Source of the DNA: Rhodospirillales bacterium
Lineage (GTDB): Bacteria; Pseudomonadota; Alphaproteobacteria; Acetobacterales; Acetobacteraceae
Length of the DNA stretch: 64,000 nt
NCBI GenBank assembly: GCA_025359905.1
Contig: JANYDF010000107.1
Span: forward strand, 1 to 64,000
Direction of reading: 5' to 3'
The translations under genes were made by a program, and so were the position numbers. Position 1 is the stretch's first letter. Each line of letters begins with the position of its first letter. The notes below the pieces were generated by a model. It was given only the letters and a program-made list of their open reading frames with translations. It ran no database searches and had not been told where the DNA came from. Shown here in pieces: positions 26,826 to 45,456 of the stretch.

Positions 26826-26850
26826 GCGATCCTCCCTGGCTGACGTCACG

Positions 26851-27888
26851 CTATTCGGTGCTGGGCGGCGGCGCGCCGAGCTTGGCGGCATACGGCGCCA
26901 AGGCGTCCAGCAAGCCGGGCCGCAGCGCCAAGCCCTCCGCTTTGGCGCGGCGCAGCCCCGCCATTGCCTTGGCCCCCGGCAATCGTAGCGCTTGCGCCCC
27001 ATCGCGCGACGGCGTGGCGCGGCAGGCTTCGGCGGTGAACGCGGTTTGCCGGGTGAACGCCTCGGCTCCGGCAAACAGCGCCGGGTCGAATACCTGCACG
27101 AACACCGAGCAGCCCCAGTTCGTCGGATGATCGGCGCGCCCGAAGCCGCCGAGGCCCTGGCTCAACGCCTCCACCATCCAGGCCAATCCGGTGCCCTTGT
27201 GGCCATGATCCACGCCGCCGACTGGCAGCAACGCGCCATCGGCCACCTTCGCCGGATCGTCGGTCGGCTGGCCGGCCGCATCGAGCGCCCACAGGCCGGG
27301 AAACCGCTTACCCTCGCGCTTCAACCGCCCGGTCATGCCCATCGTGGTGATCGAGGTGGAAATGTCGATCAGCACCGGGTCGCCATCGGTCGGGATGCCG
27401 ACCGCCAGCGGGTCGGGCATGAACACCGGCTTGGTGCCGCCATGCGGCGCCACGCGCGCTTCGGAAGGGTCGCTGCACGCGACGATTGCCATCAATCCCT
27501 GATCGGTCGCGGCCGTCAGGAAAGTGGCGAGGCAGGCGATATGATGGCTGCGGCGGATGCTGATGGCGCAGACGCCGTGGGTTTGCGCCCGCTCGGCCGC
27601 GAGGCGCACCGCGCGGTCGACCAGCCACACGCCGGGCAGATACTTGCCGTCCCACACGCAGGCCGCCGGGCGGTCGGCGATGATGTCCGGCTCGCCCACC
27701 GCCAGCATGGCGCCGGAGGCGATGTCGTCGAGGTAGTCGGGCAACTGCGCGAGGCCGTGGGTGTCGTGGCCCATCGCATCGGCGCTGACCAACAGCCGCG
27801 CGGTCACCTCCGGCTTGTCGCCATCCAGCCCCGCCGCCCCCAGCAGGGCGGCGGCGTACTCGGTCAGCCGGTCGAAAGCATGGGTCAT
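26851..27888 (-). CDS. Malate/L-lactate dehydrogenase family (Ldh2) oxidoreductase
   Basis: An NAD(P)-dependent 2-hydroxyacid dehydrogenase of 345 aa. Family marks are GHDTHGLAQLPDYL near residue 40, SIRRSHHIACLATF near 112 (probable catalytic His), and DISTSITTMG near 175. Members oxidise malate, ureidoglycolate, sulfolactate, delta-piperideine-carboxylate and similar compounds, so the exact substrate is open. It begins 7 bp after the UxaA-family gene and shares its operon; the pair would make and use a 2-keto acid or hydroxy acid. Confidence 0.87.
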   Translation of the reverse strand: MTHAFDRLTEYAAALLGAAGLDGDKPEVTARLLVSADAMGHDTHGLAQLPDYLDDIASGAMLAVGEPDIIADRPAACVWDGKYLPGVWLVDRAVRLAAERAQTHGVCAISIRRSHHIACLATFLTAATDQGLMAIVACSDPSEARVAPHGGTKPVFMPDPLAVGIPTDGDPVLIDISTSITTMGMTGRLKREGKRFPGLWALDAAGQPTDDPAKVADGALLPVGGVDHGHKGTGLAWMVEALSQGLGGFGRADHPTNWGCSVFVQVFDPALFAGAEAFTRQTAFTAEACRATPSRDGAQALRLPGAKAMAGLRRAKAEGLALRPGLLDALAPYAAKLGAPPPSTE

Positions 27889-27895: not shown

Positions 27896-29398
27896 TCAAT
27901 AAATCAGCCCTGGGGTCCAGGGGGCGAATTCGTCCTCGCCGTAGCCAAGCTGTTCGCTGGCGGTCCGGTGGCCGGAGGCGGTGTCGAGCCAGGACTGGAA
28001 GATCCGCGCGCCGGTTTCGGCCACGGTTTCGCGCCCCTCGGCGATGCCGCCCGCGTCGATGTCCATGTCGCCCGCCATGCGGCGGAACAGTGCCGTGGTA
28101 GTGGCGATCTTCAGCGACGGCACCGGCGCGCAGCCGAAGCAACTGCCGCGCCCGGTGGTGAAACAGATCAGGTTGGCGCCGGCGGCAACCTGCCCGGTGG
28201 CCGATACCGGGTCGTAGCCGGGCGAGTCCATGAACACGAGGCCGGGCGCGGTGGCGGGTTCGCCATAGCCGATCACCTGGCGCAGCGGGCTGGAGCCGCC
28301 CTTGGCCACGGCGCCGAGCGATTTTTCCAAAATAGTGGTGATGCCGCCGTCCTTGTTGCCGGGCGAGGGGTTGTTGTCCAGCGTGCCGCCATCGTCGCGG
28401 GCGTGCCCGGTCCACCAATCGATCAGCCCGCGCAGTTTTTCCGCCACCGCCGGGTCCGCCGCGCGGTCGAGCAGCAGGCTTTCCGCGCCATAGATTTCAG
28501 GGGTTTCCGACAGGATTGCCGTGCCGCCTTCGGCCGCCAGCAAGTCGGCCGCCACCCCCACGGCAGGGTTGGCGGTGATGGCGGAGAAGCCGTCCGAGCC
28601 GCCGCATTGCAGGCCGACCACCAGATGGCGGGCAGGCACCGCCTCACGCCGTGCCGCCACGCGCGGTAGCATTTCGCGCAAGGCCGCAACGCCCGATGCA
28701 ACGGTGGCCGCCGTGCCGCCTTCCTGCTGGATCACCCTGACCGCCAGCCGGTCCGAGGCGTGCAGGCCCGAAGCGGCGAGGAAGCTATCGACGTTGTTGT
28801 CCTCGCAGCCGAGGCCGATCACCAGCACGCCGCCGACATTCGGGTGGCTGGCGTACCCGGCCAGCGTGCGGCGCAGCATGTCCATACCGGGGCCGTCGGC
28901 GCGCACCGAACAGCCTTCCTTGTGCGCCAGCGCCACCACGCCATCGACGCCGGGATAATCGGCCAGATCGACCGTGGCGCGGAATTTCGCCGCGATCTGG
29001 CGCGCCACGGTGGCCGAACAATTCACCGTGGCCAGCACCAGCAGCATGTTGCGGGTGCCGACGCGGCCATCGGCGCGCCGATAGCCAAGAAATGCCGCCC
29101 CGGTAGGCGGCGGCATGGCCGCCATCGCGTTGCGCGGCGTGGCCTGGGCTGGGGCGGACGCCTGGAAACGCAGATTATGCGTGTGGATATGGCTACCCGC
29201 CGCAATATCGGCCGCCGCGACGCCAATCGGATGGCCAAGCTTCAACACCGGCGCGCCGCTTGGGATATCGGCCAGCGCGATTTTGTGCCCGCGCGGCACC
29301 GCCTCGCGCGCCAGCACACCGCCGAACCCGGTGGCATCGCCGGGCGCCAACGCTGCCAGCGCCACGCCCACCGAGTCGGCCGGGTGCAGCCGCAGCAC
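27896..29398 (-). CDS. UxaA-family hydrolyase (altronate dehydratase / sulfolactate lyase-like)
   Basis: A 500-aa lyase with an N-terminal SAF domain (about 1-75, AREAVPRGHKIALADI) and a C-terminal UxaA domain (GYRRADGRVGTRN at about 99, ALAHKEGCS, LGCEDNN, GLQCGGSDGFS, SPGNKDGGITT). The fused layout matches altronate/galactarate dehydratases, while SuyAB carries the same two parts on separate chains. It removes water, or sulfite in the Suy case, from a hydroxy acid. The start is GTG 29398. Its operon with Ldh2, aldehyde dehydrogenase and a TauT-type importer leaves a sugar acid or a C3 sulfonate as candidates. Confidence 0.85.
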   Translation of the reverse strand: MLRLHPADSVGVALAALAPGDATGFGGVLAREAVPRGHKIALADIPSGAPVLKLGHPIGVAAADIAAGSHIHTHNLRFQASAPAQATPRNAMAAMPPPTGAAFLGYRRADGRVGTRNMLLVLATVNCSATVARQIAAKFRATVDLADYPGVDGVVALAHKEGCSVRADGPGMDMLRRTLAGYASHPNVGGVLVIGLGCEDNNVDSFLAASGLHASDRLAVRVIQQEGGTAATVASGVAALREMLPRVAARREAVPARHLVVGLQCGGSDGFSAITANPAVGVAADLLAAEGGTAILSETPEIYGAESLLLDRAADPAVAEKLRGLIDWWTGHARDDGGTLDNNPSPGNKDGGITTILEKSLGAVAKGGSSPLRQVIGYGEPATAPGLVFMDSPGYDPVSATGQVAAGANLICFTTGRGSCFGCAPVPSLKIATTTALFRRMAGDMDIDAGGIAEGRETVAETGARIFQSWLDTASGHRTASEQLGYGEDEFAPWTPGLIY

Positions 29399-29411: not shown

Positions 29412-30917
29412 TCAGACGGCAGGTGAGACCTCGATCCAGATGGTCTTGGTTTGCAAATACTGCTCCATCGCCTCGGTGCCGTTGTCGCGCGTCAACGAAC
29501 CGGATTTGCGATAGCCGCCGAACGGCGTCTTGATGTCGCCCTCGGTGAACTTGTTGATCGCCACCGTGCCCGCCGGAATACGCCGTGCGAGGGAGATGGC
29601 GCGGTCGATGTCGCGGGTAAAGATGGTGGCGTGCAGGCCGTATTCGGTATCCACCGCCAACCGCAACGCTTCTTCCGGCGTGGTGCAGGACATCACCCCC
29701 AGCACCGGGCCGAAAATCTCCTCGCGCGCGATGGTCATGTCCGGCGTCACCCCGTCGAACAGCGCCGGTTGCACCCAGAATCCTGGCCAATCCGCCAGCG
29801 CAGCGCCGCCGGTGACCAGCCGCGCGCCCTCGGCGGCACCCTTGCCGATATAGCCCAGCACGCGGGCGCGGTGTTCGGCGGTGATCATGGCGCCGATTTC
29901 GGTCGACGGGTCGAACGGGTTGCCAACGATCAGGCTCTCCATGCGCGCCTGCACCTTGGCGACGAATTCCTCCTGCCGCGATGCATGCACGATCTGGCGC
30001 ATGTTGGCCGAGCAGTTCTGCCCGCCGTTCCAGCACGCCGCCATCACCACCGAGTTGATGAAGTCGTCGTCGATCCGCGCATCGTCCAGGACGATCAGCG
30101 GGCTCTTGCCGCCCATCTCTAGACCGACAGTCTTCATGTTGCTGTCGGCAGCGTAGCGCAGGAACATCGCGCCAATTTCGGTGGAGCCGGTGAACGACAC
30201 CGCGTCGATGTCGTTGTGCCGCCCGATGGCCTGCCCGGTGGTCTCGCCGTAGCCCGGCAGCACGTTCAGCACACCGGGCGGCAGGCCCGCTTCGGTGGCT
30301 AACTCGGCGAGGCGGATGGCGGTCAGCGGGGTTTGTTCGGCCGGTTTGACGATGCAGCAGCACCCAGCGGCCAACGCCGGGGCCAGTTTCCAGGCCGCCA
30401 TCAGCAGCGGGAAATTCCACGGCAACACGAGGCCGACGACGCCGATGGGTTCCTTGACGATCAGCGCCAGCGCCGTCTCGCCGGTGGGCGAGACCTTGCC
30501 GAAGCTTTTATCGATCAGTTCGGCGTACCACTGAAAGAAATTTGGCACTTCGTGGCCGACTTCGTTCAGGCAATCGGCGATGGTCTTGCCGCTGTCGATG
30601 CATTCCAGCGTGGCCAGCTCATCGGCATGGTCGCGGATCAGGCCAGCGAGTTTCAGCAGCACCGCCTTGCGATGCTCAGGTGCGGCGCGCGACCAGCCTC
30701 CGTCGTTGAACGCCCGCCTTGCGGCGCGCACCGCGCGGTCCACGTCGCCTGCGCTGCAATGCGCCACGGTGCCCAGCACGGTGCCGGTGGCCGGGGCGAG
30801 GTTTTCGAACACCGCACCTCCCTCGGCGGCGCACAGCGCGCCGTCGATGAACGCCTGCGACGGCAAGGCCAGCCGGGCAGCAATGGCACTATAATACGCC
30901 GCGTCGCGTGTGGTCAT
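29412..30917 (-). CDS. NAD(P)-dependent aldehyde dehydrogenase
   Basis: Cytoplasmic oxidation of an aldehyde to the acid. The 501-aa protein has the full family set: PWNFPLLMAAWKLAPALAAG near 158, catalytic Glu in LEMGGKSPLIV near 265, and catalytic Cys in GGQNCSANMR near 300. It lies between the importer permease and the UxaA-like gene with gaps of 12 and 13 bp. It most likely handles an aldehyde intermediate of the same pathway. Confidence 0.92.
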   Translation of the reverse strand: MTTRDAAYYSAIAARLALPSQAFIDGALCAAEGGAVFENLAPATGTVLGTVAHCSAGDVDRAVRAARRAFNDGGWSRAAPEHRKAVLLKLAGLIRDHADELATLECIDSGKTIADCLNEVGHEVPNFFQWYAELIDKSFGKVSPTGETALALIVKEPIGVVGLVLPWNFPLLMAAWKLAPALAAGCCCIVKPAEQTPLTAIRLAELATEAGLPPGVLNVLPGYGETTGQAIGRHNDIDAVSFTGSTEIGAMFLRYAADSNMKTVGLEMGGKSPLIVLDDARIDDDFINSVVMAACWNGGQNCSANMRQIVHASRQEEFVAKVQARMESLIVGNPFDPSTEIGAMITAEHRARVLGYIGKGAAEGARLVTGGAALADWPGFWVQPALFDGVTPDMTIAREEIFGPVLGVMSCTTPEEALRLAVDTEYGLHATIFTRDIDRAISLARRIPAGTVAINKFTEGDIKTPFGGYRKSGSLTRDNGTEAMEQYLQTKTIWIEVSPAV

Positions 30918-30929: not shown

Positions 30930-31712
30930 TCAGTTCTTGCCGCGAATGCGGCGCTGCGAAATATCCCACGGGATCAACACCCGCTCGGCCAGCGTCACGA
31001 GGCCGAACATGCTCAGGCCCAGCAATGCGAGCAGAAAGATCGCCGCGAAAGCGAGGTCTGGGCGCATGTTGCCGGTGGCAATCTGGATGTAGAAGCCAAG
31101 GCCCTGGTCGCTGCCGATGAACTCGGCGATGGTGGCGCCCACGCTGGCGTTCATCGCGGCGTATTTGAAGCCGACGAACACCTGCGGCAACGCGGCGGGC
31201 AAACGCACCTTGAAGAACGCCCGCCATGTGCCGGCCCCGGTCGCACGGGTAAAGCGCGTGAGTTCCTCGGACAACGAGACAAATCCGGCCACCGCGTTCA
31301 GGACGATGGGGAAGAAGCACACCAAAAAGACGATGATGACCTTCGGCAGCAAGCCGAAGCCGAGCCAGGAAATAAAGATCGGCGCGAAGGCGATCTTCGG
31401 GATCATCTCAAGGCTGACCAGCGTGGGATACACGGTGCGCCGCAGCAGGCCGGAAAACGCGATGGCGAGGCCCAAGGGCAACGCTACGACGATGGCGACA
31501 GCGTAGCCCAGCACCGTCTCGGTGCCGGTGATGAAGGTGTAACGCAGCAGCAGCGGATAATCCGCCCGCGCGCTGAGCGCGATTTCCGACGGGCGCGGCA
31601 GGATATACGCGGGAACATGGAACAAGCCGATGGACACTTCCCAGGCCAGCAAGAGCCCAGCGAAGAACAGCGGAAACGCTGCGGCGCGGCCGAGTTGATT
31701 AACCCGGCGCAT
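30930..31712 (-). CDS. NitT/TauT-type ABC permease, importer 2
   Basis: An inner-membrane permease of 260 aa with six hydrophobic segments and the conserved loop FTRATGAGTWRAFFKVRLPA near residue 150. Its start overlaps the ATPase stop by one base. Only one permease gene is present, so it should form a homodimer, unlike importer 1. Confidence 0.9.
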   Translation of the reverse strand: MRRVNQLGRAAAFPLFFAGLLLAWEVSIGLFHVPAYILPRPSEIALSARADYPLLLRYTFITGTETVLGYAVAIVVALPLGLAIAFSGLLRRTVYPTLVSLEMIPKIAFAPIFISWLGFGLLPKVIIVFLVCFFPIVLNAVAGFVSLSEELTRFTRATGAGTWRAFFKVRLPAALPQVFVGFKYAAMNASVGATIAEFIGSDQGLGFYIQIATGNMRPDLAFAAIFLLALLGLSMFGLVTLAERVLIPWDISQRRIRGKN

Positions 31713-32476
31713 CAGATTTCACCGTAGCGGTGAAATACGTCGCTGATCTGGCTGACATAGCCAGCGAACGCCGCCGAGCGCTTCACCGTCAGATCGCGCG
31801 GCCATGGCAGATCGATATCCACCACACTGTCGAGCCGCCCGGGGCGCGGCGTGATGATGCAAACTTTGGTGGAAAGCTGCACCGCCTCCTCAATACTATG
31901 CGTTACCAGCAACACCGTGGTGCGGGTTTTCAGCCACAGGCGCTGCAAGTCGGCGCGGATGCGCTCGCGTGTCATCGCGTCCAGTTTGCCCAGCGGCTCA
32001 TCGAGCAGCACGGTGTCCGGATCGTGCACCATCGCCTGACAGAACGCGGCGCGCTGCTGCATGCCGCCGGACAGTTCGAACGGCGCACGATTGGCGAAGT
32101 CGGTCAGGCCCACGGTTTCCAGCAGCCCGTCGATGCGCTCGCGGCAAGTTTTCGGATTGATGCCGCGCAACTCCAGTTGCAGTTCGATATTACGCCGCAC
32201 GCTGCGCCACGGCACCAGCGTGTTGTCCTGAAACATGATGCCGACATCGGTGCGGGTTGCCAGCACAGGGCGGCCATCGACGTCGATCTCGCCTGCGCTC
32301 GGCGGCAGCAGACCGGCGATCATCAGCAACAGTGTGGACTTGCCGCAGCCGGATGGGCCGACCAGCGACACGAACTCGCCCCGTTCAACGGTGAACGTGG
32401 CCGGGCCGAACGCGTGGACACCGCCATCCGCAGTCTCGAAGCGTTTGACCACGTTGCGAATGTCGATATGCGGCAT
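31712..32476 (-). CDS. NitT/TauT-type ABC ATPase, importer 2
   Basis: A 254-aa ATPase with Walker A GPSGCGKSTLLL, Q-loop IMFQDNTLVPW, signature LSGGMQQRAAFCQA, Walker B VLLDEPLGKLD and H-loop LLVTHSIEEA. ATG at 32476 is chosen over the adjoining TTG. It resembles SsuB/TauB and HMP-type ATPases. A GC-rich hairpin separates it from the binding-protein gene. Confidence 0.93.
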   Translation of the reverse strand: MPHIDIRNVVKRFETADGGVHAFGPATFTVERGEFVSLVGPSGCGKSTLLLMIAGLLPPSAGEIDVDGRPVLATRTDVGIMFQDNTLVPWRSVRRNIELQLELRGINPKTCRERIDGLLETVGLTDFANRAPFELSGGMQQRAAFCQAMVHDPDTVLLDEPLGKLDAMTRERIRADLQRLWLKTRTTVLLVTHSIEEAVQLSTKVCIITPRPGRLDSVVDIDLPWPRDLTVKRSAAFAGYVSQISDVFHRYGEI

Positions 32477-32505
32477 CAATAGGCCTTGGGTGAAAGGCGG
32501 CAGCC

Positions 32506-32531
32506 CGGGCGGCGCTGTGCGGCGCCGCCCG
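32506..32531 (-). terminator. Hairpin between binding-protein and ATPase genes
   Basis: A perfect 10-bp stem (CGGGCGGCGC with GCGCCGCCCG) and a 6-nt loop lie 8 bp after the binding-protein stop. There is no strong T-run on the minus strand, so partial attenuation or mRNA stabilisation is more likely than full termination. Confidence 0.5.
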
Positions 32532-32538
32532 CATTCCG

Positions 32539-33534
32539 TTAGGGAATGAACTTGTTGGTGTAGAAATCGGTCGCGGGCTTGTCGGTCTTCAAGCCGTTAT
32601 AGGTCTTCATCAGGTCCAGCATGTCGGCCCAGTCGCCCGGCACGTTGACACCGAGTTTGTGTTCGGTGTTGCCCTTGGAATACAGCACGCCGAGCGTGAC
32701 CTTCAGCACATCGAGCGCTGCTTTCTTGCCGGCATCCTCGTTCATGGTGCCGCCGACAATGTCACCCATCGCGTCGATGGCGGCCTGCGGATTGGCTTCG
32801 GTAAGCTTGTAGGATTCAATGGTGGCCGCGACAAAGCGCTTCACCAGATCGGGGTTCTTTTCCACCGTGTCGGTCTTGGCCGCGATACAGTAACCGACCT
32901 GATTGATGCCGTAGTCGGAGTAAGCGAACTGCACCGGAGGTTGCCCGCCCGCGGAAATGATTTCCGACGGCTTGTCGTCCAGACCGCCGAGCATGCCGAC
33001 AGCACCGCCGGTGCCCTGCAGGTAGCCAGTGACCAGCGCGCCCTCGGCCACGTTGACGATATGCACGCTGCCGTCGGCCAGTTTGGCGTTCTTCATGACC
33101 AGCGGGAAGAACGTGTTCACGCCCGCATTGGCCGTGGTCAGGATGGTTTTGCCGGCCAGATCGGCCAGCGTTTTCACGCCAGTGTCCGGGCGCACCAGCA
33201 CGCCATCGGTGCCCATCGCGTCAATGACGGCCACCGAGATCAGCGGCGCGCCCTTGGCGACCAGATTGACCATCGAGGCGCACGACCCGTAGTCGAACGT
33301 GCTATCGCCGTTGGCGACCAAGCGATGCGCTGAGCCGGAGCCGTTGCCGGAGCGAATGTCCAGATCGATGCCGTATTTTTCGTAGATGCCTTTATCTTTG
33401 CCCAAGGCAAAACCGGCATGCGAGCCGTAATACATCCAGTTCAGCCGCACCCGCACCTTGTCCGCTGCCTGTGCGCCCTGCATCGAGGCAACGACAAGGG
33501 CACCGGCGAGAAGCACCCATCCAGTTCTTTTCAT
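32539..33534 (-). CDS. NitT/TauT-type ABC substrate-binding protein, importer 2
   Basis: A periplasmic receptor of 331 aa, the usual family length. The signal peptide covers residues 1-23 (VLLAGALVVASMQGAQA). The mature start VRVRLNWMYYGSHAGFALGK followed by GIYEKYGIDLDIRSG is classic for the NMT1/SsuA-like group. AAGGAGG sits 6 nt before the ATG at 33534, deciding the start over longer frames. It is the first gene of the seven-gene minus operon and the most informative one for finding the substrate. Confidence 0.92.
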   Translation of the reverse strand: MKRTGWVLLAGALVVASMQGAQAADKVRVRLNWMYYGSHAGFALGKDKGIYEKYGIDLDIRSGNGSGSAHRLVANGDSTFDYGSCASMVNLVAKGAPLISVAVIDAMGTDGVLVRPDTGVKTLADLAGKTILTTANAGVNTFFPLVMKNAKLADGSVHIVNVAEGALVTGYLQGTGGAVGMLGGLDDKPSEIISAGGQPPVQFAYSDYGINQVGYCIAAKTDTVEKNPDLVKRFVAATIESYKLTEANPQAAIDAMGDIVGGTMNEDAGKKAALDVLKVTLGVLYSKGNTEHKLGVNVPGDWADMLDLMKTYNGLKTDKPATDFYTNKFIP

Positions 33535-33818
33535 GCTGTCCTCCTTGGTTAACACCGGCCACGGACCTGTCGGAGGAATCGGCATCAGACGGGGAACCGC
33601 CTGATCACCGAAATCCCAGTCAGCGTCTCGGATGACGCGATGGTGGCAGAGGCGTTCCCGCTCAGATTGATCCATAGCGTCGCATGTTTGATTTTTCACG
33701 CCAAGGCGGTATGCGTCGTGGGAGGGCAATTGCGTGACGCGCGGTGCAAACCCTGGCCTTGGTGGCTACGGCATCATCGTGGCATACGCTCAGGCGGACA
33801 GCACTGCGTGGAGTCGAA

Positions 33819-34772
33819 ATGAACACGTCCAAGACACGCGGCCGCGTAACTGGTTGCTACATCACCGTCCCGACGATGTTCAGCGACGCGGATTTGGAAG
33901 TCGATACGGCGGCCATTGGCCGGCACGTGCGCTTCCTGCGCGCCAGCGGCGTCGCGGCGGGCAATGCGGTGCTGCTTGCCGGGGGCGCTGCTGGCGACTT
34001 CTCCGCCATGACCTTCGACGAGCGCGTGCGCGTGGCCGAAGCGGTGCGCGACGCGGCGGATGGTGCGGTGCCGCTGGCGATGGGTGCGCAGACCACCAGC
34101 ACGCGCGAGTTGGTGCGTATTGCGCGGGCGGCGGAATCGCTTGGCTTCGACTTCATCCAGGTGTCGTGCCCGTTCTACTTCAACCACACCGAAGGCGACT
34201 TTCTCGACTACGTGAAGGCCGCTGCCGAGGCGGCTGATATCGGCATCATCATCTACAACACGTTTTGGACCAGTGCGGCGGTGTCGTTCCAAACGGTCGA
34301 AAAGCTGGTCGATATCCCCAACGTGGTGGCGCTGAAATGGGCGACGCCGCGCACCGATGCGATGGAATTCGAAGATGTTGTCTCGACATTCTCCAAGCGG
34401 CTGTCGATCATCGATAACCATTTGATGTTCGCGCAAAGCCACGCGCTGGGCGCCACGGCGTTCGAGGTGCATCTGTCGAATTACTGGCCGGCCTGGGGCC
34501 TAAAACTGCTGGCCGACCTGAATGCCGGCAATTACGGAGAGGTGCAGCGCTACTTGGTCAGCGAGGCGATGCCATTCTACAAACTCTGGATGGACATCGA
34601 ACGCGCGTACACCAGCGGCGACGGCTACCTCGACAAGTTGTGCATGGAATTGATCGGCCTGGACTCCAGCCGCTGCCGCCCGCCGACGCGCGACGTGCGC
34701 GGCCTGTACCGCGAACGCTGCCGCGCGATGATGCTGCAAACCGGTGTGCCTGGGGTGCTGCCGGCCGGCTGA
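33819..34772 (+). CDS. DapA-family (class I) aldolase/lyase with altered GTTGE loop
   Basis: A (beta/alpha)8-barrel Schiff-base enzyme of 317 aa. The catalytic Lys173 (VVALKWATPR) and Tyr146 (IIIYNTFWTS) of the dihydrodipicolinate synthase/N-acetylneuraminate lyase family are present. The conserved GTTGE loop reads GGAAGD at residues 55-60, lacking both Thr residues, so it is unlikely to be DapA itself. A keto-acid aldolase or dehydratase on a sugar-acid-like substrate fits better. It diverges from importer 2 across 284 bp and lies beside the sialidase-like operon, so it could serve either pathway. Confidence 0.82.
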   Translation: MNTSKTRGRVTGCYITVPTMFSDADLEVDTAAIGRHVRFLRASGVAAGNAVLLAGGAAGDFSAMTFDERVRVAEAVRDAADGAVPLAMGAQTTSTRELVRIARAAESLGFDFIQVSCPFYFNHTEGDFLDYVKAAAEAADIGIIIYNTFWTSAAVSFQTVEKLVDIPNVVALKWATPRTDAMEFEDVVSTFSKRLSIIDNHLMFAQSHALGATAFEVHLSNYWPAWGLKLLADLNAGNYGEVQRYLVSEAMPFYKLWMDIERAYTSGDGYLDKLCMELIGLDSSRCRPPTRDVRGLYRERCRAMMLQTGVPGVLPAG

Positions 34773-34798
34773 TGGCCAGGGAGCGAAGCGAGATATCC

Positions 34799-34912
34799 AT
34801 CCACAGATAACGCAGATTTACGCAGATATTCCTGCGTGACGGCTCCGGCAAACTCTACAGGCCGCTTCGCGCGATAAATTCTTATCTGCGCTTATCTGCG
34901 TCATTTGTAGAT
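34799..34912. repeat. Inverted repeat built from tandem CGCAGAT units
   Basis: Arms 34799-34828 and 34883-34912 are inverted copies matching at 24 of 30 positions, around a 54-bp spacer. Each arm is internally a tandem of about 10 bp; in the right arm CTTATCTGCG occurs twice in a row (34881-34900). It lies between convergent genes and could fold into a long hairpin. CGCAGAT-rich repeats of this kind occur in many GC-rich proteobacteria. Confidence 0.65.
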
Positions 34913-34931
34913 GAATCGCTTGCTTCCTCCC

Positions 34932-36374
34932 CTACAACCGTATCGCCACGTTCTTAATCCGCAGGAAATTGCGCACCGCGATCATGCCGCGCTCGCGCCC
35001 GATGCCGCTGTCCTTGATGCCGCCGGTCGGCGCCTGGGTGCCGCCGAGATACCAGCCGTTGACCCACACCGAGCCGGTTTCCAGCCCGGCTACCATGGCG
35101 AACGCGCGTTGCAGGTCGCGGGTGTAGACGCCTGCAACGAGACCGGTGCTCACGCTATTGGCCATCGCCAGCGCCTCGGCGTCGGTGTCGTAGGCGGTGA
35201 CGGTCACCAGCGGGCCGAATACTTCCTCACATGCGATGCGGCTGGCGGCATCGACGCGGTCGAACACGGTGGCGGCGGCGAAGTAGCCGCGTGCCAGCCC
35301 ACCAGGCCGTCCGCCGCCGGTCAGCAGCCGCGCGCCGCTGTGGCGCGCTTCCGCAAGATAGCCCATCACCTTGGCGTATTGTCCGGCTGACACCACTGGG
35401 CCGAGGTCGGGATCGTCCAACGCCGGCCCCACCCGCAAAGCGGCTGCGCGGGCTGCCAGCCGTTCGGCCACCTCGTCCGCCACCGCGCGCGCCACCAGCA
35501 GGCGCGAGGACGATGAGCAAACCTGCCCAGCATTCTCGAAACCACCCATCATGGCGTCGTCGATCACCCGGTCGAGATCGGCGTCGGCGGCGACAATCAT
35601 CGCGTTCTTGCCGCCGAGCTCCAGCACGGCGGGCTTCATCCCCGCCGCCGCCGCGATACCGACGGCGCGCCCGGCCTCGACCGATCCGGTAAACGCCACG
35701 CCGCGCACCAGCGGATGCGCCACCAGCGGCGCGCCCGCTCCCGGCCCGTCGCCGCACACCACGTTGACCACGCCGGGCGGAAACCCAGCTTCGGCCACCA
35801 GCGCCATGAAGTGCAGCACCGACAGCGGCGATTGCTCGGCGGGCTTAATCACCGCCGTGCATCCCGCCGCCAACGCGGGGCCGAGCGAGCGCGCCACCAT
35901 GCCCAGCGGATAGTTCCACGGCACGATATGCGCGGTCACGCCCAGTGGCTCCAGCCGCGTGTAGTCCACCACGCCGTCGCCGAGCGGGATAACCGCGCCT
36001 TCCACCTTGTCGGCGGCGCCCGCGTTGTAGCGCAGGGTCTCCGCCACCCCGCCAATATCGCCGCGCGCCGCACTGATCGGCTTGCCCACGTTGCAGGCTT
36101 CCAGCCAGGCCAGCGCCTCAAGATCGCGCGTCACCAGATCGGCGAGGCGAAATAGCAATTTGCCGCGCGCCACCGGGGCCAGTTCGCGCCACGGCCCCAG
36201 CCGGGCCGCTTCGGCGGCGGCCACGGCGGCGGCGATCTCGCCGCCGCCGCCGTGCGCCACGTGGCCGATCACCTGTTCAGTGGATGGGTCGATCACCGGC
36301 AGCGTGGCGCCATCCGCCGAGGCCACGGTTTTGCCGCCGATCACGTGCAGCAGCGGGGGAAGCGCGAAACCCAT
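34932..36374 (-). CDS. NAD(P)-dependent aldehyde dehydrogenase
   Basis: An aldehyde dehydrogenase of 480 aa, last gene of the sialidase-like/CUT1 operon. The catalytic Glu is in LELGGKNAMIV near 252 and the catalytic Cys in NAGQVCSSSSRLLV near 288; the cofactor loop is FTGSVEAGRAVG. The start at 36374 lies 2 bp after the permease stop; a much longer open frame continues through the permease region and is not used. It resembles betaine- or aminoaldehyde-type members, but the operon suggests a sugar-derived aldehyde. Confidence 0.92.
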   Translation of the reverse strand: MGFALPPLLHVIGGKTVASADGATLPVIDPSTEQVIGHVAHGGGGEIAAAVAAAEAARLGPWRELAPVARGKLLFRLADLVTRDLEALAWLEACNVGKPISAARGDIGGVAETLRYNAGAADKVEGAVIPLGDGVVDYTRLEPLGVTAHIVPWNYPLGMVARSLGPALAAGCTAVIKPAEQSPLSVLHFMALVAEAGFPPGVVNVVCGDGPGAGAPLVAHPLVRGVAFTGSVEAGRAVGIAAAAGMKPAVLELGGKNAMIVAADADLDRVIDDAMMGGFENAGQVCSSSSRLLVARAVADEVAERLAARAAALRVGPALDDPDLGPVVSAGQYAKVMGYLAEARHSGARLLTGGGRPGGLARGYFAAATVFDRVDAASRIACEEVFGPLVTVTAYDTDAEALAMANSVSTGLVAGVYTRDLQRAFAMVAGLETGSVWVNGWYLGGTQAPTGGIKDSGIGRERGMIAVRNFLRIKNVAIRL

Positions 36375-36376
36375 GG

Positions 36377-37249
36377 TCAGCCTTTCAGCCCGCCGGCCGA
36401 CAGCCCGGCGATGAAGTAGCGTTGCAGCAACAGAAATAAAGCCACGGACGGGATGCACAACAGCGTCACGGCGGCCATCGCCACCGCGTAACCCTCCATC
36501 TGCGTATGCGTGCCGACCACCGGCGCGAAGGCGGCGATGCCGACCGGCAGGGTTTTCATGTCCTCGTCGAATGTGATCAGCAGCGGCCAGAGGAAGTTGT
36601 TCCAGTTCAGCGTGAACACGATCACCGTGGCCGCAATCGCCGGGCTGCGCGCCAGCGGCAGCGCGATGCTCCAGAAAATCCGCAGCGGCCCGGCGCCGTC
36701 GACGATCGCGGCTTCCTCCAGTTCTCGCGGGAAGGTCAGGAAGAACTGGCGGAAGATGTAGACGCCCAGCACGTTGGCGACCGTTGGCAGGATCAACCCC
36801 TGATAGGTGCTGGCCCAATCCATGCGGATCATGCCGATCAGCAGCGGCACCACGCCGATTTCCGGCGGGATCATCAATGAGGCGAGGAAGATCATGAAGA
36901 TCAGCTTGCGCCCCGGAAAGCGCAACCGCGCCAGCGCGTAGCCAGCCAGCGCCGAGGCGGCGATGCATAGTCCGGTGGCTATAGTGGCGGCGATGATGCT
37001 GTTCAGTGCCCAGGTGGCGATCGGGTATTTCAGCACCGCGACGTAGTTTTGCAGCGTGAAAGTGCGTGGTATCCACTCGATATCGCGCGTCATCACCTGC
37101 GACGGCAGCTTGAACGAGGTAGAGACCATCCACAGAAACGGTCCGGCCCAGGCCAGCACGAAGCACATGCCAACCAGCCAGACCGGCAGTTCACGCCATC
37201 TGAGCGTTGTGAGCGGAATACGGCGGCGCAAAATCGCAGGGCTACGCAT
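36377..37249 (-). CDS. CUT1 sugar ABC transporter permease (MalG-like)
   Basis: An inner-membrane permease of 290 aa with six hydrophobic segments and the EAA loop EEAAIVDGAGPLRIFWSIAL near residue 185. It starts at ATG 37249 inside the end of the preceding permease gene (8-bp overlap); a GTG at 37261 is possible. It pairs with the MalF-like subunit at 37242-38162. Confidence 0.91.
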   Translation of the reverse strand: MRSPAILRRRIPLTTLRWRELPVWLVGMCFVLAWAGPFLWMVSTSFKLPSQVMTRDIEWIPRTFTLQNYVAVLKYPIATWALNSIIAATIATGLCIAASALAGYALARLRFPGRKLIFMIFLASLMIPPEIGVVPLLIGMIRMDWASTYQGLILPTVANVLGVYIFRQFFLTFPRELEEAAIVDGAGPLRIFWSIALPLARSPAIAATVIVFTLNWNNFLWPLLITFDEDMKTLPVGIAAFAPVVGTHTQMEGYAVAMAAVTLLCIPSVALFLLLQRYFIAGLSAGGLKG

Positions 37250-38162
37250 GTGCGACTTCACGCAAGACCAGCCGCTGCAACAGCGTTACCGCCAGCACCG
37301 CCAGGAACAACAGCACTGAACAGGCCGAAGCGTAGCCCAGCATATTGCGCACGATGGCCGACTGATAAATGGTGAAAATCACCGAGGCGGAAGATCCGGC
37401 TGGGCCACCATTGGTCATGACATAGACTTGGCTAAAAATTCGCATCGTCGAGATGATTTGCAGCGTCACCACCATGCTGATCGTCGGCCGGATGTGCGGC
37501 AGCGTGATGGCGAATTGCTGGCGGATGAACCCGGCGCCATCAATGGACGCCGCCTCGTACAAATCCTTCGGCACATCCTGCAACGCCGCCAGGAACAGCA
37601 CGAACCCCAGGCCCAAATCCCACCAGATCGAGGCGATCGAGACGCCGATCAGCGACCAGTTGGCACTGGTCAGCCACGGGATCGGCCCGATACCGAACCA
37701 GCCAAGATAGTGGTTGAGCAACCCGAATTGCGTGTCCAGCACCCACACCCACACCAGCCCGATCACGGTGGCCGAGACCACGTTGGGCGTGAACAGAATG
37801 GTGCGGGCGAGGCCCGACAGCGGCCACGAGCGGTTGACGAACAGGGCGAACGACAGCCCCAGCACCACGACGCCCGGCACCACCAGCAGCGCGTATAGCA
37901 ACACGTTGACGAAGGCCTGCTTGAACCAGGTGTCGTGCAGCGCCTCGCGGTAGTTATCCAGCCCGATCCAGTTGGGTTCGCCGATGATCGCCCAATCGGT
38001 GAAGCCGACATAGATGCCGAACAGCACCGGGGCCACGTTGAACAGCAGGAACGGTACCGCGAAGGCGGCAACGAACGCATAACCGGTCCAATCGATCTTG
38101 GACCGGCCAACAAAGGCGACGGCGGAGGTTTCCGCCGCCGCCGTCTGTTCGTCGTTTGCCAT
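37242..38162 (-). CDS. CUT1 sugar ABC transporter permease (MalF-like)
   Basis: An inner-membrane permease of 306 aa, six hydrophobic segments, with the EAA loop YEAASIDGAGFIRQQFAITL near residue 225. The ATG at 38162 is 10 bp after the binding-protein stop. No ATPase gene is present in this operon, so the importer must use a shared MsmK/UgpC-type ATPase encoded elsewhere. Confidence 0.91.
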   Translation of the reverse strand: MANDEQTAAAETSAVAFVGRSKIDWTGYAFVAAFAVPFLLFNVAPVLFGIYVGFTDWAIIGEPNWIGLDNYREALHDTWFKQAFVNVLLYALLVVPGVVVLGLSFALFVNRSWPLSGLARTILFTPNVVSATVIGLVWVWVLDTQFGLLNHYLGWFGIGPIPWLTSANWSLIGVSIASIWWDLGLGFVLFLAALQDVPKDLYEAASIDGAGFIRQQFAITLPHIRPTISMVVTLQIISTMRIFSQVYVMTNGGPAGSSASVIFTIYQSAIVRNMLGYASACSVLLFLAVLAVTLLQRLVLREVAHA

Positions 38163-38172
38163 CGCCGATTGC

Positions 38173-39474
38173 TTAGCCGGCGTCGAGGCCCTTCTGCCAC
38201 TTCTCGGTAATTTGGGCCATCGCCTCCTCCGGTTTGGCTTTGCCCGCCCACACCGTCTCCAGCGTCTTGGCGAGGAAGTTGCCGCCCGAGTAGATCGTGA
38301 AGTCCGGTCCAGCCAGCACCGGAATTTCGCCCTCGGTGGCGAACGCCATGCCATCGACGAATGCACCGCGCACCGACCAGTCGTTGCCGGCGGTCTTGTA
38401 GTCCGGCAGCGACAGGATCGACTTGCGCGGCGAGGCGCCGCGACCGACCGTGGTCCACAGCTTGCTGTTGTCGGACAGCCACTTCACCGCCGTCATGGTG
38501 GCTTCGTAGCGGCCTTTGTCCTTCTGCTGGTACAGTTCCAACCCGCCTTCTTCGAAGTATGTCACCCGCTTGCTGCCGATTTGCGGGAACAGATTGGTCT
38601 TGAACGGCAGCTTCTGCGCAACATAACCATTCAAGGTCCACGGGCCGGTCCAGAAGATCGATCCCTGGCCATTGCCGAACGCCTTGTAGCGGTCGGTCAC
38701 GTCGCGGGTGGAGACCTTGTGGGTGTCGAACAGGGCCAGCACCCACTCCATCGCCGCGATGCCGGCTTTCGGATTGACGGCCGCGGTCTTGAAATCGTCG
38801 GACGCGCGCATGAAGCCCATTTGCGCCGAGACAATGCCCCAGGTCACGGTGGGCTGCACGCCCGAGCCCGTCATCATGATGCCCGAGCGCGTTACCTTGC
38901 CGCCCTCGCTCTTGGTCATCGCCTTGGCCCAATCGAGCAGCCCGGCGCCGTCGGCGGGGAACTTGTCGGGATCGAGACCGGCTTCCTTGACGTGATCGGT
39001 GTTCACTTCCGGTTGCAGGCTCATCAGGTCCATCGGCACCAGGAATAGCCCGTTGCCGTATTTCGGATAGCGCGCCGCCTTGATCGAGAACGGGTCGAAG
39101 TCAGCGATGTCGAGGCCCACCGCCTTGGCGAGGTCATCGAGCGGCACGACAACGCCGTCTTTCGCCATCTTGGCGCGCACGCCGGCGGTGCCCCAGCCGA
39201 AGTCCGGTGCACGGCCGGTGGCGGCGGCGGCCAAAACCTTGGTGGTGTATTGTTCTTCCGGCACCAGTTCCATGCGGATCTGCACATCAGTGTGCGCCGC
39301 GTTGAACGCGTCGATACACTTCTGCCAAACTTCGCCGTCCGACGCGGCGAGCCAGCTCCAATGCACGATTTCCTTGGGTGCGGCGCGCACGATTGCCGGG
39401 CGGGCCAGCACGCCCGCGCCGAGTGCGGCAGCGCCAGCCAGGGCGCTGCGTCGTGACAGTCTCAATTCGGACAT
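38173..39474 (-). CDS. CUT1 extracellular sugar-binding protein with Tat-like signal
   Basis: A periplasmic binding protein of 433 aa in family 1 (MalE/UgpB-like). The N-terminus carries a twin-arginine motif (LSRRSALAGAAALGAG) and cleavage near AIVRAA, so export is probably by Tat in folded form. The mature start IVHWSWLAASDGEVWQK and DFGWGTAGVRAKMAKDG are typical. It is the third gene of the operon, after the two sialidase-like genes. Oligosaccharide or sugar derivative uptake is expected. Confidence 0.91.
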   Translation of the reverse strand: MSELRLSRRSALAGAAALGAGVLARPAIVRAAPKEIVHWSWLAASDGEVWQKCIDAFNAAHTDVQIRMELVPEEQYTTKVLAAAATGRAPDFGWGTAGVRAKMAKDGVVVPLDDLAKAVGLDIADFDPFSIKAARYPKYGNGLFLVPMDLMSLQPEVNTDHVKEAGLDPDKFPADGAGLLDWAKAMTKSEGGKVTRSGIMMTGSGVQPTVTWGIVSAQMGFMRASDDFKTAAVNPKAGIAAMEWVLALFDTHKVSTRDVTDRYKAFGNGQGSIFWTGPWTLNGYVAQKLPFKTNLFPQIGSKRVTYFEEGGLELYQQKDKGRYEATMTAVKWLSDNSKLWTTVGRGASPRKSILSLPDYKTAGNDWSVRGAFVDGMAFATEGEIPVLAGPDFTIYSGGNFLAKTLETVWAGKAKPEEAMAQITEKWQKGLDAG

Positions 39475-39523
39475 TCGACTCTCCCTTGTTGGTGCCCCGC
39501 CGGGCGGATTGCCGGGCGAGGGG

Positions 39524-40630
39524 TTACAGCCTCACGCGTTTGGAATGCAGCCCGGTCACCCCGCCAGTATCGCGTTGGTACCAAGCAACAAACACCGAAC
39601 CGTCGGCGCAAAGCGCCGCGGTCGGATAGCCGGCGTCGCGATTGGGCAAGGACTGCACCACCACCGGATGATCCAAATCCCAATGCGCGCCGAGATCGTT
39701 GGAAATATAGGCCAGAATGCCACACGGCTGGCTGCGCCGCCCGGTGATTGCCGCCAGCCTGCCGTCGGGCAGCGTCAAAATATGCGCCGGGTAGGCAGTG
39801 ATCCCGGCCGGCTCCGGCACGGTCCAGCTTTGCCCGCGATCATACGAGCGGATCGCATGCAGCGTGTGCGACGTATTCTCGCGCAGCAGCATCAGCAGCA
39901 TACCATCCGGCAGAACATGCGTCGCCGGTTCTTCGTATTCGCAGCCGTCCGCCTCGGCCACCAACTGCGGCGGCGACCAGGTCAGGCCGCCGTCACGCGA
40001 ACGCACCGAGAAGATGCGCCGGTAGTGCGGGATATCAGACAGCGGCAGCAGAATCTCACCGTCGTCCAGTACTGCGGCGCCACGCATACCGTAGCCGCCG
40101 CTATAGGGCGCCACATCGAGGTCGGTAACATGGGCGAACCGCCGCCCGCCATCGTCGCTGCGGCAGATGCTGGCCACACCGCCTCCACGCAGCCACGGCA
40201 TCAGCCGCTCCGCTGGTCCCGCCGCCGCCGGCGTGGAGTCGAGTTCCGATGATCCCACCAGCCCGGCGCGCAACATCTCAGGTGTGGCCAGCAACGGATC
40301 GGGCGGGCCTTCCGGCGGGGCGTCAACCGGATACCAGTGAAACCGCCATTGGTTGAGCAGCAAACCGCCGTCCGGCAGCGCCGTCAGCCCGGCGCATTCG
40401 GTGCCCGTCACGCCGAACCCCGGTACGGGTTGGGGCGGCGACCAGGACTCGCCCTCATCGGTGGAGCGCATGACAATGTTGACGAATTCAGGGTCTTGCG
40501 GCGGATGCATCGTTACCGCCCGGCGCGGCGCACGGTTGGCGACCAGTACCCAACTGCCATCGCGCAGCGCCGCCATATGCGGATGCGCGATGTAGCGATA
40601 CGGGTCGGTCAACAGCACGCGCGCCGTCAT
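39524..40630 (-). CDS. BNR-repeat sialidase-like protein, copy 1
   Basis: A six-bladed beta-propeller protein of 368 aa. Asp-boxes (S-x-D-x-G-x-x-W) are visible at STDEGESW, SRDGGLTW and SYDRGQSW, evenly spaced. No signal peptide precedes the domain, so it is probably cytoplasmic. The RIP motif of classical sialidases is not evident near the N-terminus (PYRYIAHPHMAALRDGSW occupies that place), so sialic acid specificity is doubtful. The ATG at 40630 follows the paralogue's stop by 7 bp. Another glycan-active or binding role is possible. Confidence 0.82.
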   Translation of the reverse strand: MTARVLLTDPYRYIAHPHMAALRDGSWVLVANRAPRRAVTMHPPQDPEFVNIVMRSTDEGESWSPPQPVPGFGVTGTECAGLTALPDGGLLLNQWRFHWYPVDAPPEGPPDPLLATPEMLRAGLVGSSELDSTPAAAGPAERLMPWLRGGGVASICRSDDGGRRFAHVTDLDVAPYSGGYGMRGAAVLDDGEILLPLSDIPHYRRIFSVRSRDGGLTWSPPQLVAEADGCEYEEPATHVLPDGMLLMLLRENTSHTLHAIRSYDRGQSWTVPEPAGITAYPAHILTLPDGRLAAITGRRSQPCGILAYISNDLGAHWDLDHPVVVQSLPNRDAGYPTAALCADGSVFVAWYQRDTGGVTGLHSKRVRL

Positions 40631-40637
40631 GCTGGCG

Positions 40638-41852
40638 TTAGTCCGCCAGCCGGAATCGAGTGCACAGCACATGTTGCAACGGCTGCTCGCGCTCGTCCCA
40701 CTCATGGTAAGATGCGAGGATCGTGCCGTCGTTCAGTTGCACCACGCTCGGGTAGCCGATGTGCTGGTAGACGCCGGGGTTGTTCCAGTCGATCCGCCCG
40801 CCGCCATACTTGCCAGAGGCCGGGCTCATGCGGCTCGATCCTGGCTTGTCCACGGCACTGCGGCCCGGCACGCCGCCGTCGCGAATGACGAACTCGTTCT
40901 TGCGGTCCCAGGTGATGCCATCGTCCGAAATACACCCGCGCACGCCGTAGGGCGGGCGGCGGTAGCCGTAGATCATCAAGTAGCGCCCGTCCTGCAGCGC
41001 GATCATCTCGGTGGGGAAGCCCCAAATATTGGTGTACCTGGGAGGGGTCCAGGAAAACCCATCGTCGTCCGAGACCACGACGGCGATGTTGCGCGAATCG
41101 CTCGACGGGTTGGAGTGGGTGCGCATGGTGCACACCAACCTGCCATCGTGCAGCCGCAGCAGCGCCGGTTCCTCGAAGTCGATGATGCTGGCAGCGTCAT
41201 AGCCCAGTGTGGAGAAATACTCCCAATTCTCGCCGCCGTCGTCCGAGCGCATCAGCGCCGAGCGGGTGCTCTCGCCTTCGCCTTCTTCTTCATAGCCGCG
41301 AATGCGGCCGTACAGCCCCATGAGCAGCGAGCCGGATGGCAATTGCCAGCAGCCCAGACGGCAGCCGCCGTGCTTCAGCGGGCGCACGTTCACTGGGATC
41401 GGCGCACTCCAGGTCGTGCCGCGATCGGTCGAGCGAACCACATAAGTGCCAAGCCAGGACTGCAACTTATACGCCCACGTCCAGTCGCCCCATTCCGGCG
41501 TGTTCGGGTGCGAGCTCCAGGATACGCCCTCTGGCCGGATGCCCTTCTTGAAGTGTCCAGTAATGGTCAGGTTGACGATCCAGGTACCATCGGCAAGTTC
41601 ACAAAAGCCGCAATCCCAGTTGCCGGTGGTCGCCGTCCACGGCAGAACGACTTCCGGCGCCGACCATGAGATGCCGCCATCGGCCGACCGCGTCAGCAGG
41701 GTTTGGCCACTGTCGTGGTGATAGGGGAATCGTTCTTCGTTGTAGACGGCGATCACCTCGCCGGTACTGACCACGCGGGTGGCCACCTGATTGACGCAGT
41801 GTTCCGGGTGGGTGGCGATGGTGTGGTGCGTGACATCAATCAAGCTGGGCAC
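40638..41852 (-). CDS. BNR-repeat sialidase-like protein, copy 2
   Basis: A 404-aa propeller protein and first gene of the operon. Asp-boxes are SADGGISW, STDRGTTW, SDDGGENW and SDDDGFSW. It too lacks a signal peptide and a clear RIP motif. It shares the fold with copy 1 but little sequence, so the two probably act on different linkages or steps. With the CUT1 importer downstream, intracellular processing of an imported glycoside is the simplest model. Confidence 0.82.
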   Translation of the reverse strand: MPSLIDVTHHTIATHPEHCVNQVATRVVSTGEVIAVYNEERFPYHHDSGQTLLTRSADGGISWSAPEVVLPWTATTGNWDCGFCELADGTWIVNLTITGHFKKGIRPEGVSWSSHPNTPEWGDWTWAYKLQSWLGTYVVRSTDRGTTWSAPIPVNVRPLKHGGCRLGCWQLPSGSLLMGLYGRIRGYEEEGEGESTRSALMRSDDGGENWEYFSTLGYDAASIIDFEEPALLRLHDGRLVCTMRTHSNPSSDSRNIAVVVSDDDGFSWTPPRYTNIWGFPTEMIALQDGRYLMIYGYRRPPYGVRGCISDDGITWDRKNEFVIRDGGVPGRSAVDKPGSSRMSPASGKYGGGRIDWNNPGVYQHIGYPSVVQLNDGTILASYHEWDEREQPLQHVLCTRFRLAD

Positions 41853-44077: not shown

Positions 44078-44123
44078 ATAGACATATCACCGATCAAGAA
44101 TGGCATTTGACATCATATCAAAT
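44068..44123. promoter_or_regulatory. gbpR-chvE regulatory region with ATATCAAAT repeats
   Basis: ATATCAAAT occurs twice in direct orientation (44071-44079 and 44115-44123), 44 bp apart, about four helical turns, in an AT-rich patch. The first copy overlaps the 8-bp palindrome GATATATC (44068-44075). The placement suits binding by a LysR regulator controlling the divergent chvE gene; this is inference. Confidence 0.5.
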
Positions 44124-44240
44124 TTCCGCAGTTTGCCGGCAAGGACGTGTTTTATGGACATGACCAGCCAGGGGCTGCAAAGGCTCTTCACGGCGTGTTT
44201 GAGCATGACCGGGCGCTTAACGAAGTACGGGAGGACGAGT

Positions 44241-45305: not shown

Positions 45306-45320
45306 TCTCGACTTGCTATA

Positions 45321-45354: not shown

Positions 45355-45456
45355 TTATTGTACGGCGAGCGGGCGCCGCCGTGCGCGATAGGCTTTCTCG
45401 TCAGGCTAGGCTGCCGTGCCGTGCCGGGCTTATAAGCAGACATGGAGGAGGCAGCC

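Follow-up and report, generated by a model that had tools for sequence, protein, structure and literature searches.

A conserved bacterial gene cluster with two sialidase-fold proteins lacking the RIP arginine, a CUT1 importer and a sugar-acid module: a putative system for acidic glycosides

This report concerns a gene cluster encoding two sialidase-fold proteins, BNR1 and BNR2, in a stretch of 64,000 nucleotides (positions 1 to 64,000 of contig JANYDF010000107.1, assembly GCA_025359905.1) from a Rhodospirillales bacterium of the Acetobacteraceae. The whole stretch is referred to as the window; it is part of contig C44 in our numbering, in a draft genome of 4.63 Mb. On the minus strand BNR1 and BNR2 are followed, closely spaced, by a binding protein with a twin-arginine translocation (Tat) type signal, two CUT1 permeases and an aldehyde dehydrogenase (ALDH1); BNR2 begins 7 nt past the BNR1 stop. 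An earlier note on this DNA had described two BNR proteins at the head of such an operon, and indeed all of these genes were found in place, with Pfam matches. The cluster is larger than was first noted, however. It reaches down to about position 25812 and takes in a second importer, a dehydratase/dehydrogenase pair, a second aldehyde dehydrogenase (ALDH2) and a regulator, all of which had been missed. A DapA-like gene, which the note placed next door, does adjoin the operon, but it lies inside the conserved unit and is not a mere neighbour.

The cluster and its occurrence in other bacteria

Two short peptide patterns were used in a single scan of 84,980 species genomes, which gave 48 BNR1 loci; sequences lacking both patterns are missed in this way. 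Apart from a few that are unplaced, the loci belong to Alphaproteobacteria, Anaerolineae, Caldilineaceae and other Chloroflexota, Spirochaetales, Acidimicrobiia and Immundisolibacterales. They cannot be counted as 48 independent cases: eight are from Mesorhizobium, seven of those being close relatives, and three (L023, L051 and L066) are apparently the same as genomes G388, G915 and G919. Because first-pass picking of open reading frames (ORFs) misses real genes (it passed over BNR1 in L023 and Ldh_2 in L084), presence was counted by tblastn, with a threshold of 35% identity along 25% of the query. Several loci end at contig edges, and the counts of absence are upper bounds.

Counted in this way, BNR2 is matched in 33 of the 48 loci and stands next to BNR1 in 32. 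The note had proposed a search for conserved pairing with CUT1 importers; the CUT1 binding protein is matched in 39 loci, permease 1 in 41 and permease 2 in 42. For the remaining genes the numbers are 33 (ALDH1), 30 (DapA), 18 (NMT1) and 13 (ALDH2). At a stricter threshold of 45% over 50% of the query there are still 38 loci with the binding protein, 30 with DapA, 26 with BNR2 and 6 with UxaA. As a control, 12 unrelated genes of the window were treated likewise; ten have no match in the 48 loci and two (a CUT2 ATPase and permease) have matches in 2 of 48, and at 45% over half of the query all 12 are at 0 of 48. Of the 34 regions that have both ALDH1 and BNR1, window counted, 26 show the ALDH1 match within 400 nt of BNR1 and in the same orientation; in the window itself the two genes stand apart.

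The layout of individual loci varies. Two BNR1-type genes are present in each of L056 and L057, one BNR1-type copy in L058 (13796-15003) is split into two overlapping reading frames, and L036 has two BNR2-type genes within one cluster (at 9102 and 17291). In four Anaerolineae loci (L034, L035, L037, L061) the first genes of the cluster encode an FCD-type regulator and a class III aminotransferase.

Closer to the window, BNR1 is rare. BNR1 at 1e-30 was found only in the window's own genome (G000) among 289 genomes of its class, as was the CUT1 binding protein at 1e-50 among 250 genomes of the order. Among 299 genomes of the phylum, BNR1 at 1e-10 gave three matches, strong in G000 and G388 and partial in G244 (8e-14); G388 holds the BNR1/BNR2 pair with nearly the whole cluster. 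No relative of BNR1 was found among viral contigs. On plasmids, relatives of BNR1 (one record) and BNR2 (two records) were found only in Azospirillum, at 27-29% identity, and in the two of these three records that were opened the surroundings differ. There were no plasmid matches to DapA at 1e-40, NMT1 at 1e-60 or the CUT1 binding protein at 1e-50, which are strict limits. The two Azospirillum records that were opened (L008 11803-14207 and L009 11977-14332) each have an SRPBCC-family gene immediately after the distant sialidase-like gene, whose identity is 27% to BNR1 in one record and 29% to BNR2 in the other.

Each part of the cluster falls into a known superfamily, and what is new seems to be the arrangement, together with the pair of sialidase-fold proteins without the RIP arginine and the module structure. 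We found no description of the cluster in the open-access (PMC) literature, as judged from titles and the openings of abstracts and without subscription papers or preprints, which is weak evidence of absence.

The genes are collected in Table 1. The listed ORF of BNR2 starts at 40705, which is too long; the ATG at 40630 is backed by an orthologue from the same genus in L006. The ORF of the regulator extends to 27074, and its start near 26843 was deduced from the domain match. The Pfam cut-off of BNR_2 is 31.4 bits.

Table 1. Genes of the cluster (25812-41852) in the window
Gene or product	Position	Strand	Remarks
BNR1, sialidase-fold protein, 404 residues	40638..41852	-	GTG start behind GGAGA; Pfam BNR_2 78.4 bits
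BNR2, sialidase-fold paralogue of BNR1, 368 residues	39524..40630	-	Pfam BNR_2 74.8 bits
CUT1 solute-binding protein, Tat-type signal (RRSAL)	38173..39474	-	SBP_bac_1
CUT1 permease 1 (P1)	~37242..38162, start approximate	-	BPD_transp_1; UgpA-like, under cut-off
CUT1 permease 2 (P2)	36377..37261	-	BPD_transp_1; UgpE-like, under cut-off
ALDH1, aldehyde dehydrogenase 1	~34932..36383, start approximate	-	Aldedh 509 bits
DapA-like enzyme	33822..34772	+	DHDPS 98.4 bits; best NCBIfam KdgD 87.5 bits, cut-off 373.95
NMT1/SsuA-type binding protein, second importer	32539..33552, start approximate	-	NMT1 99.8 bits
TauB-type ATPase, second importer	31712..32479	-	matched in 17/48 related loci
TauC-type permease, second importer	30930..31712	-	NCBIfam SaoP 113, TauC 80.5 bits, both under cut-off
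ALDH2, aldehyde dehydrogenase 2	29412..30917	-	NCBIfam PuuC 502 bits, under cut-off
GarD/UxaA-family sugar-acid dehydratase	27896..29398	-	SAF + GD_AH_second + GD_AH_C; PDB 6u7l E 7e-93
Ldh_2-family 2-oxo/2-hydroxyacid oxidoreductase	26851..27888	-	Ldh_2 283.5 bits (gathering score 38.8)
GbdR-like AraC regulator with DJ-1/PfpI domain	25812..26850	-	family and domain matches

Two neighbours of the cluster in the window may be mentioned. The gene of a 239-residue protein (42216-42932), with no Pfam or NCBIfam match and none in the 48 related loci, has BNR1 on one side and a PcaQ-like LysR regulator gene on the other. A CUT2-type sugar importer with binding protein, ATPase and permease (44100-48206) adjoins the cluster; its parts occur in at most 2 of the 48 loci.

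Fold, residues and localisation of BNR1 and BNR2

Both proteins were modelled with AlphaFold2 as sialidase propellers, BNR1 from 41 aligned rows (pLDDT 80.9, pTM 0.86, with low-confidence loops at 102-117, 125-132, 188-192 and 337-350) and BNR2 from 33 (pLDDT 93.9, pTM 0.92). The Asp-box pattern S.D.G..[WF] occurs four times in BNR1 and five times in BNR2. The closest solved relative of both is Dfer_1899 (PDB 5hx0; VIA Z 41.4 for BNR1 and 40.3 for BNR2, 24% identity), which also lacks RIP at the aligned place (A-F-P) and is named in no paper that we found in the open-access literature. GH33 sialidases (such as Micromonospora 1eur, NanA and human NEU2) come next, with Z 34-38 for BNR1 and 31-33 for BNR2 over 301-330 residues and 12-22% identity among the matches listed.

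The conserved residues were followed in alignments that hold 41 of the 49 extracted BNR1 rows and 33 of the 36 BNR2 rows. When the two families are aligned as profiles (probability 100, E 2.8e-51), N21 of BNR1 falls on A15 of BNR2, D47 on D46, E228 on E234, R244 on R250, R298 on R299 and Y367 on Y335. N21, D47, E228, R244 and R298 are present in 41/41 BNR1 rows, and Y367 in all 40 rows that reach that position; R165 and R183 are likewise invariant across the 41 rows. The BNR2 residues E234, R250, R299 and Y335 are found in 33/33 rows, D46 in 31 (Glu in two) and A15 in 32 (Ser in one). The conserved Glu, Tyr, Asp and two Arg may be equated with the sialidase catalytic set, their roles being putative; this assignment, as well as that of the RIP place, relies on the numbering and spacing of residues in known sialidases and on a co-linear alignment to 5hx0, not on superposition. 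The stretch from R298 to Y367 in BNR1 is longer than in those sialidases; the other spacing fits.

What sets BNR1 and BNR2 apart from GH33 sialidases is the loss of the RIP arginine, the lack of a visible export signal and the association with an importer and a sugar-acid operon. The note had already remarked that a clear RIP motif is wanting and had doubted a classical sialidase, and both remarks are supported: the RIP place is Asn or Ala/Ser in all 74 aligned rows. The pattern R[IVLM]P does not occur in the first 90 residues of any of the 41 BNR1 rows; two of the 33 BNR2 rows have RVP at residue 24, off the RIP place, and one BNR2 row has RIP at residue 304.

Regarding export, the highest 12-residue mean hydropathy within the first 45 residues is 1.07 in BNR1 and 0.95 in BNR2, compared with 1.95 and 2.51 in the window's two binding proteins and 1.22-1.69 in three cytoplasmic enzymes of the cluster. 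Among relatives of at least 350 residues the peak is 1.18 for BNR1 (46 rows) and 1.90 for BNR2 (35 rows). By this index, which is crude and no signal-peptide predictor, and in which the top BNR2 rows overlap the value of the Tat binding protein, no export signal is seen in BNR1 or BNR2, as the note had claimed. Nothing points to secretion by another route, for which no further search was made. The binding proteins, on the other hand, carry an N-terminal twin arginine in 38 of 39 rows, window included.

The note called the importer ATPase-less. This is true of the window operon, which has the binding protein and two MalFG-type permeases and no UgpC/MalK-type ATPase, but not of the system as such: such an ATPase is matched in 29 of the 48 related loci, and the window's genome encodes UgpC-type ATPases elsewhere, the best being 52% identical. 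It is plausible that the importer would share one of these. Import and intracellular processing, likewise proposed in the note, are backed by the conservation of the CUT1 parts across phyla, with a glycoside as the putative substrate.

The acid module and its dehydratase/dehydrogenase pairs

The acid module, of which the DapA-like gene is the marker, can stand alone. In three samples a strong BNR1 match is always accompanied by DapA in the same genome (1/1, 2/2 and 3/3; four different genomes). Within the class sample both occur only in the window's own genome. The phylum sample has DapA in G000, G388 and G423, and strong BNR1 in the first two of these; among 199 genomes of the family of G388, DapA is present in four and BNR1 in three of those four. 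The two genomes with DapA only, G423 and G993, each have the regulator, DapA, NMT1, TauB, TauC and a dehydratase/dehydrogenase pair, which includes Ldh_2 in G423. In the stretches read there, BNR1, BNR2 and this CUT1 binding protein are absent, BNR1 alone having also been sought genome-wide; G993 has a different CUT1-like operon nearby with permeases 32-33% identical. Since the acid module stands without BNR1 and BNR2 in these genomes, the BNR/CUT1 part looks like an addition to it, and it might supply the same acid from a masked form. The DapA-like protein has a lysine, K173 in VALKWAT, that is invariant in 29 rows and which we take to be the Schiff-base lysine.

Two kinds of pairs occur in the module: a UxaA-type dehydratase with an Ldh_2 enzyme, as in the window, and an enolase-superfamily dehydratase with a D-isomer-specific 2-hydroxyacid dehydrogenase. 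Over 49 regions (48 loci and the window) the enolase pair is found in 16 and the UxaA pair in 10; UxaA stands alone in two, enolase alone in two, Ldh_2 alone in one, and mixed pairs in none. The Ldh_2-alone case is L052, whose ORF 6 resembles UxaA at 35%; in L045 there is a distant 2-hydroxyacid dehydrogenase and no enolase on a contig of 6.2 kb. Of the two stand-alone modules, one has a pair of the first kind and the other a pair of the second. The matched pairs would suit enzymes of consecutive steps. L-2-hydroxy acids are the substrates of Ldh_2 enzymes and D-2-hydroxy acids those of the second dehydrogenase type, so the intermediates of the two variants may be opposite epimers at C2, a difference that would be lost on dehydration. 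The genes of a pair are mostly adjacent (16/16 in the enolase type, 7/10 in the UxaA type), and cassette inheritance hence explains much of the pairing. In a BNR1 tree that was made quickly and gave long-branch warnings, built without L030, L046, L065 and L066 and after three of the 49 rows (shorter than 360 residues) had been dropped, the dehydratase type changes five times with hand-made labels or at least four times with threshold labels, and the dehydrogenase type five times.

The window dehydratase leads in the PDB to GarD and an altronate hydrolase domain, and the enolase-type protein to galactonate dehydratase and an unnamed member. On plasmids the window dehydratase has 212 matches. 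Identity is 52-56% in the best 25, among which 19 bear the annotation altronate dehydratase; uxaC is present in two of four stretches opened around such matches. In the UxaC-UxaB-UxaA hexuronate route, keto-acid reduction precedes dehydration, as we propose here too. However, the window genes lack a uronate isomerase, the reductase is Ldh_2 or a D-2-hydroxyacid dehydrogenase and not UxaB, and the importers are different. The GarD-GarL/KdgD routes for galactarate and glucarate share with the cluster a GarD-family dehydratase, a DHDPS-family enzyme and an aldehyde dehydrogenase; the cluster adds the 2-hydroxyacid dehydrogenase and the glycoside module, and its model scores are far under the cut-offs. 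The window dehydratase, with the family domains present, reaches 388.4 bits on the GarD galactarate dehydratase equivalog model (cut-off 730.85).

A second, more distant UxaA type (36-39%) is present in L022 (14743-15942), L026 (5964), L044 (3666) and L084 (12791-14029), each time with an Ldh_2 gene. In L022, the only one of the four scanned with Pfam, the SAF domain lies outside the same reading frame. The split UxaA could presumably be likened to SuyAB, and a sulfonate substrate was considered with regard to the Tau-type importer and a likeness of Ldh_2 to sulfolactate dehydrogenase; this is unsupported, as the L-sulfolactate dehydrogenase model gives 137 bits against a cut-off of 500.

The proposed pathway and its alternatives

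In our opinion the cluster is best read as a two-part catabolic unit for import and intracellular hydrolysis of an acidic glycoside, and we put the probability of this at about one half; the substrates, the directions and order of the reactions and the hydrolysis itself are deduced from the gene content. A small sugar acid would be taken up by the Tau-type ABC importer. The oxidoreductase acting on 2-oxo and 2-hydroxy acids (here Ldh_2) and the sugar-acid dehydratase (here of the GarD/UxaA type) would convert it to a 2-keto-3-deoxy acid, from which the DapA-like enzyme would split off pyruvate, and an aldehyde dehydrogenase would oxidise the other aldolase product. A glycoside of that acid would be brought in by the Tat-exported binding protein with the CUT1 permease pair and cut in the cytoplasm by BNR1 and BNR2, presumably by a retaining sialidase-like mechanism with Tyr/Glu plus Asp, and ALDH1 may oxidise the other half of the glycoside. 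Import of sulfoquinovose glycosides of the Smo type, which combines a CUT1 importer for an acidic glycoside with an intracellular hydrolase, would be a possible parallel; the hydrolase candidates here are of the sialidase fold, and no gene of the cluster is named as a GH31 enzyme or a monooxygenase in the family scans.

The likeliest acid to be freed would be a non-3-deoxy 2-ulosonic acid, with Ldh_2 as the enzyme of its reduction at C2. Where the anomeric carbon of the substrate bears a carboxylate, the nucleophile is typically a tyrosine, and the presumed tyrosine nucleophile here points to a 2-ulosonide. The RIP arginine, the first of the arginine triad of sialidases, helps to bind this carboxylate, and its loss weakens the same argument. 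Hence we advance the 2-ulosonate detail tentatively and would rather expect it to be wrong.

Some loci without matches to DapA or the aldehyde dehydrogenases have other families of lyases and oxidoreductases, which favours the pyruvate-lyase and aldehyde-oxidation steps. Among clusters without DapA, an RraA-like protein is recognised by Pfam in L037 and L059 and through clustering only in L050 and L061, L050 also carries a GarL-like HpcH/HpaI aldolase, and L053 has an aldehyde:ferredoxin oxidoreductase with DapA and neither aldehyde dehydrogenase.

Several results weigh against the proposed pathway. The place of the RIP arginine is Asn in 41/41 BNR1 rows and Ala or Ser in 33/33 BNR2 rows. A BNR2 match is absent from 15 of the 48 loci and a DapA match from 18. 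The best model of the DapA-like protein is KdgD, a decarboxylating dehydratase, and its identity as an aldolase is not clear. The stand-alone module of G993 has no aldehyde dehydrogenase match. The swap of matched pairs rests on three informative independent pairs (starred branches), all in the same direction, with p 0.25 in a sign test. Finally, 18 of the 49 regions show none of the four dehydratase and dehydrogenase genes; 12 of them are shorter than 15 kb and six are longer (L035, L037, L047, L049, L050 and L061, from Anaerolineae, Spirochaetales and two Albidovulum loci), and in those six the acid pathway would be different or encoded elsewhere.

The alternative that we take most seriously, doubtful as it is, makes BNR1 and BNR2 uronidases: a uronide would yield a uronic acid, which ALDH1 would oxidise to an aldarate for a GarD-like dehydration, with the DapA-like enzyme as KdgD and ALDH2 leading to 2-oxoglutarate. 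The best NCBIfam models (galactarate dehydratase, 388 bits; KdgD, 87.5 bits) and the two aldehyde dehydrogenases in the window agree with it, and GH88-family genes beside the clusters in L037 (Anaerolineae) and L050 (Spirochaetales), the former also having relatives in L035 and L061, suggest a substrate containing uronate in those lineages. But both model scores are far under their cut-offs, both aldehyde dehydrogenases occur in just 11 of 31 DapA-bearing regions, and the 2-hydroxyacid dehydrogenase (Ldh_2 or the D-specific type) is left unexplained though it accompanies the dehydratase. Nor is there a uronate isomerase among the window cluster genes or a recurring one among the unassigned ORFs of the loci, the latter being a weak test given the genes that the ORF picker misses.

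An intracellular sialidase, KDNase or Kdo hydrolase, which would cut an imported nonulosonide or a Kdo or Dha glycoside with the DapA-like enzyme as ulosonate lyase, is in our view unlikely. NanA does belong to the DHDPS superfamily, the sialidase fold is strong (Z 31-38) and the Glu, both Arg and the Tyr are retained. Yet the RIP arginine is missing from all 74 aligned rows, the DapA-like protein gives only 68.7 and 53.3 bits on two N-acetylneuraminate lyase models (cut-offs 281 and 382), a C2/C3 dehydratase is needless for a 3-deoxy ulosonate, and family scans name no gene of the window cluster NanK or NanE.

We likewise consider it improbable that the propellers are non-hydrolytic, acting as isomerases, mutarotases, lactonases or binding proteins for the imported acid. 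The lost arginine, the unseen export signal and a nearest solved relative without known function would suit such roles, but the presumed nucleophile pair, arginines and acid/base are all kept, and two paralogues with a CUT1 importer of the oligosaccharide type suit cleavage of a larger compound. That the BNR genes are chance neighbours of a sugar-acid operon is already contradicted, in spite of the varying layout and the loci without BNR2 or DapA matches, by the recurrence of the cluster across phyla where the twelve control genes are found in 0-2 of 48 loci.

Returning to the acidic glycoside, it is conceivable, if speculative, that BNR1 and BNR2 represent a new family of cytoplasmic sialidase-fold glycosidases without RIP, acting on a widespread acidic glycoside (perhaps a 2-ulosonide) that bacteria of several phyla use, and that the keto acid freed from it is reduced in two pathway lineages to C2 epimers of opposite kind, from which two separate dehydratases lead to one 2-keto-3-deoxy acid. 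If this is true, genes annotated automatically as sialidases would leave sialic acid alone and would instead mark the use of an unnamed acidic glycoside. The binding protein would be a ready probe for this compound, while the stand-alone acid module would give the monomer separately, and the propellers would show that an enzyme of the sialidase fold can do without part of the arginine triad.

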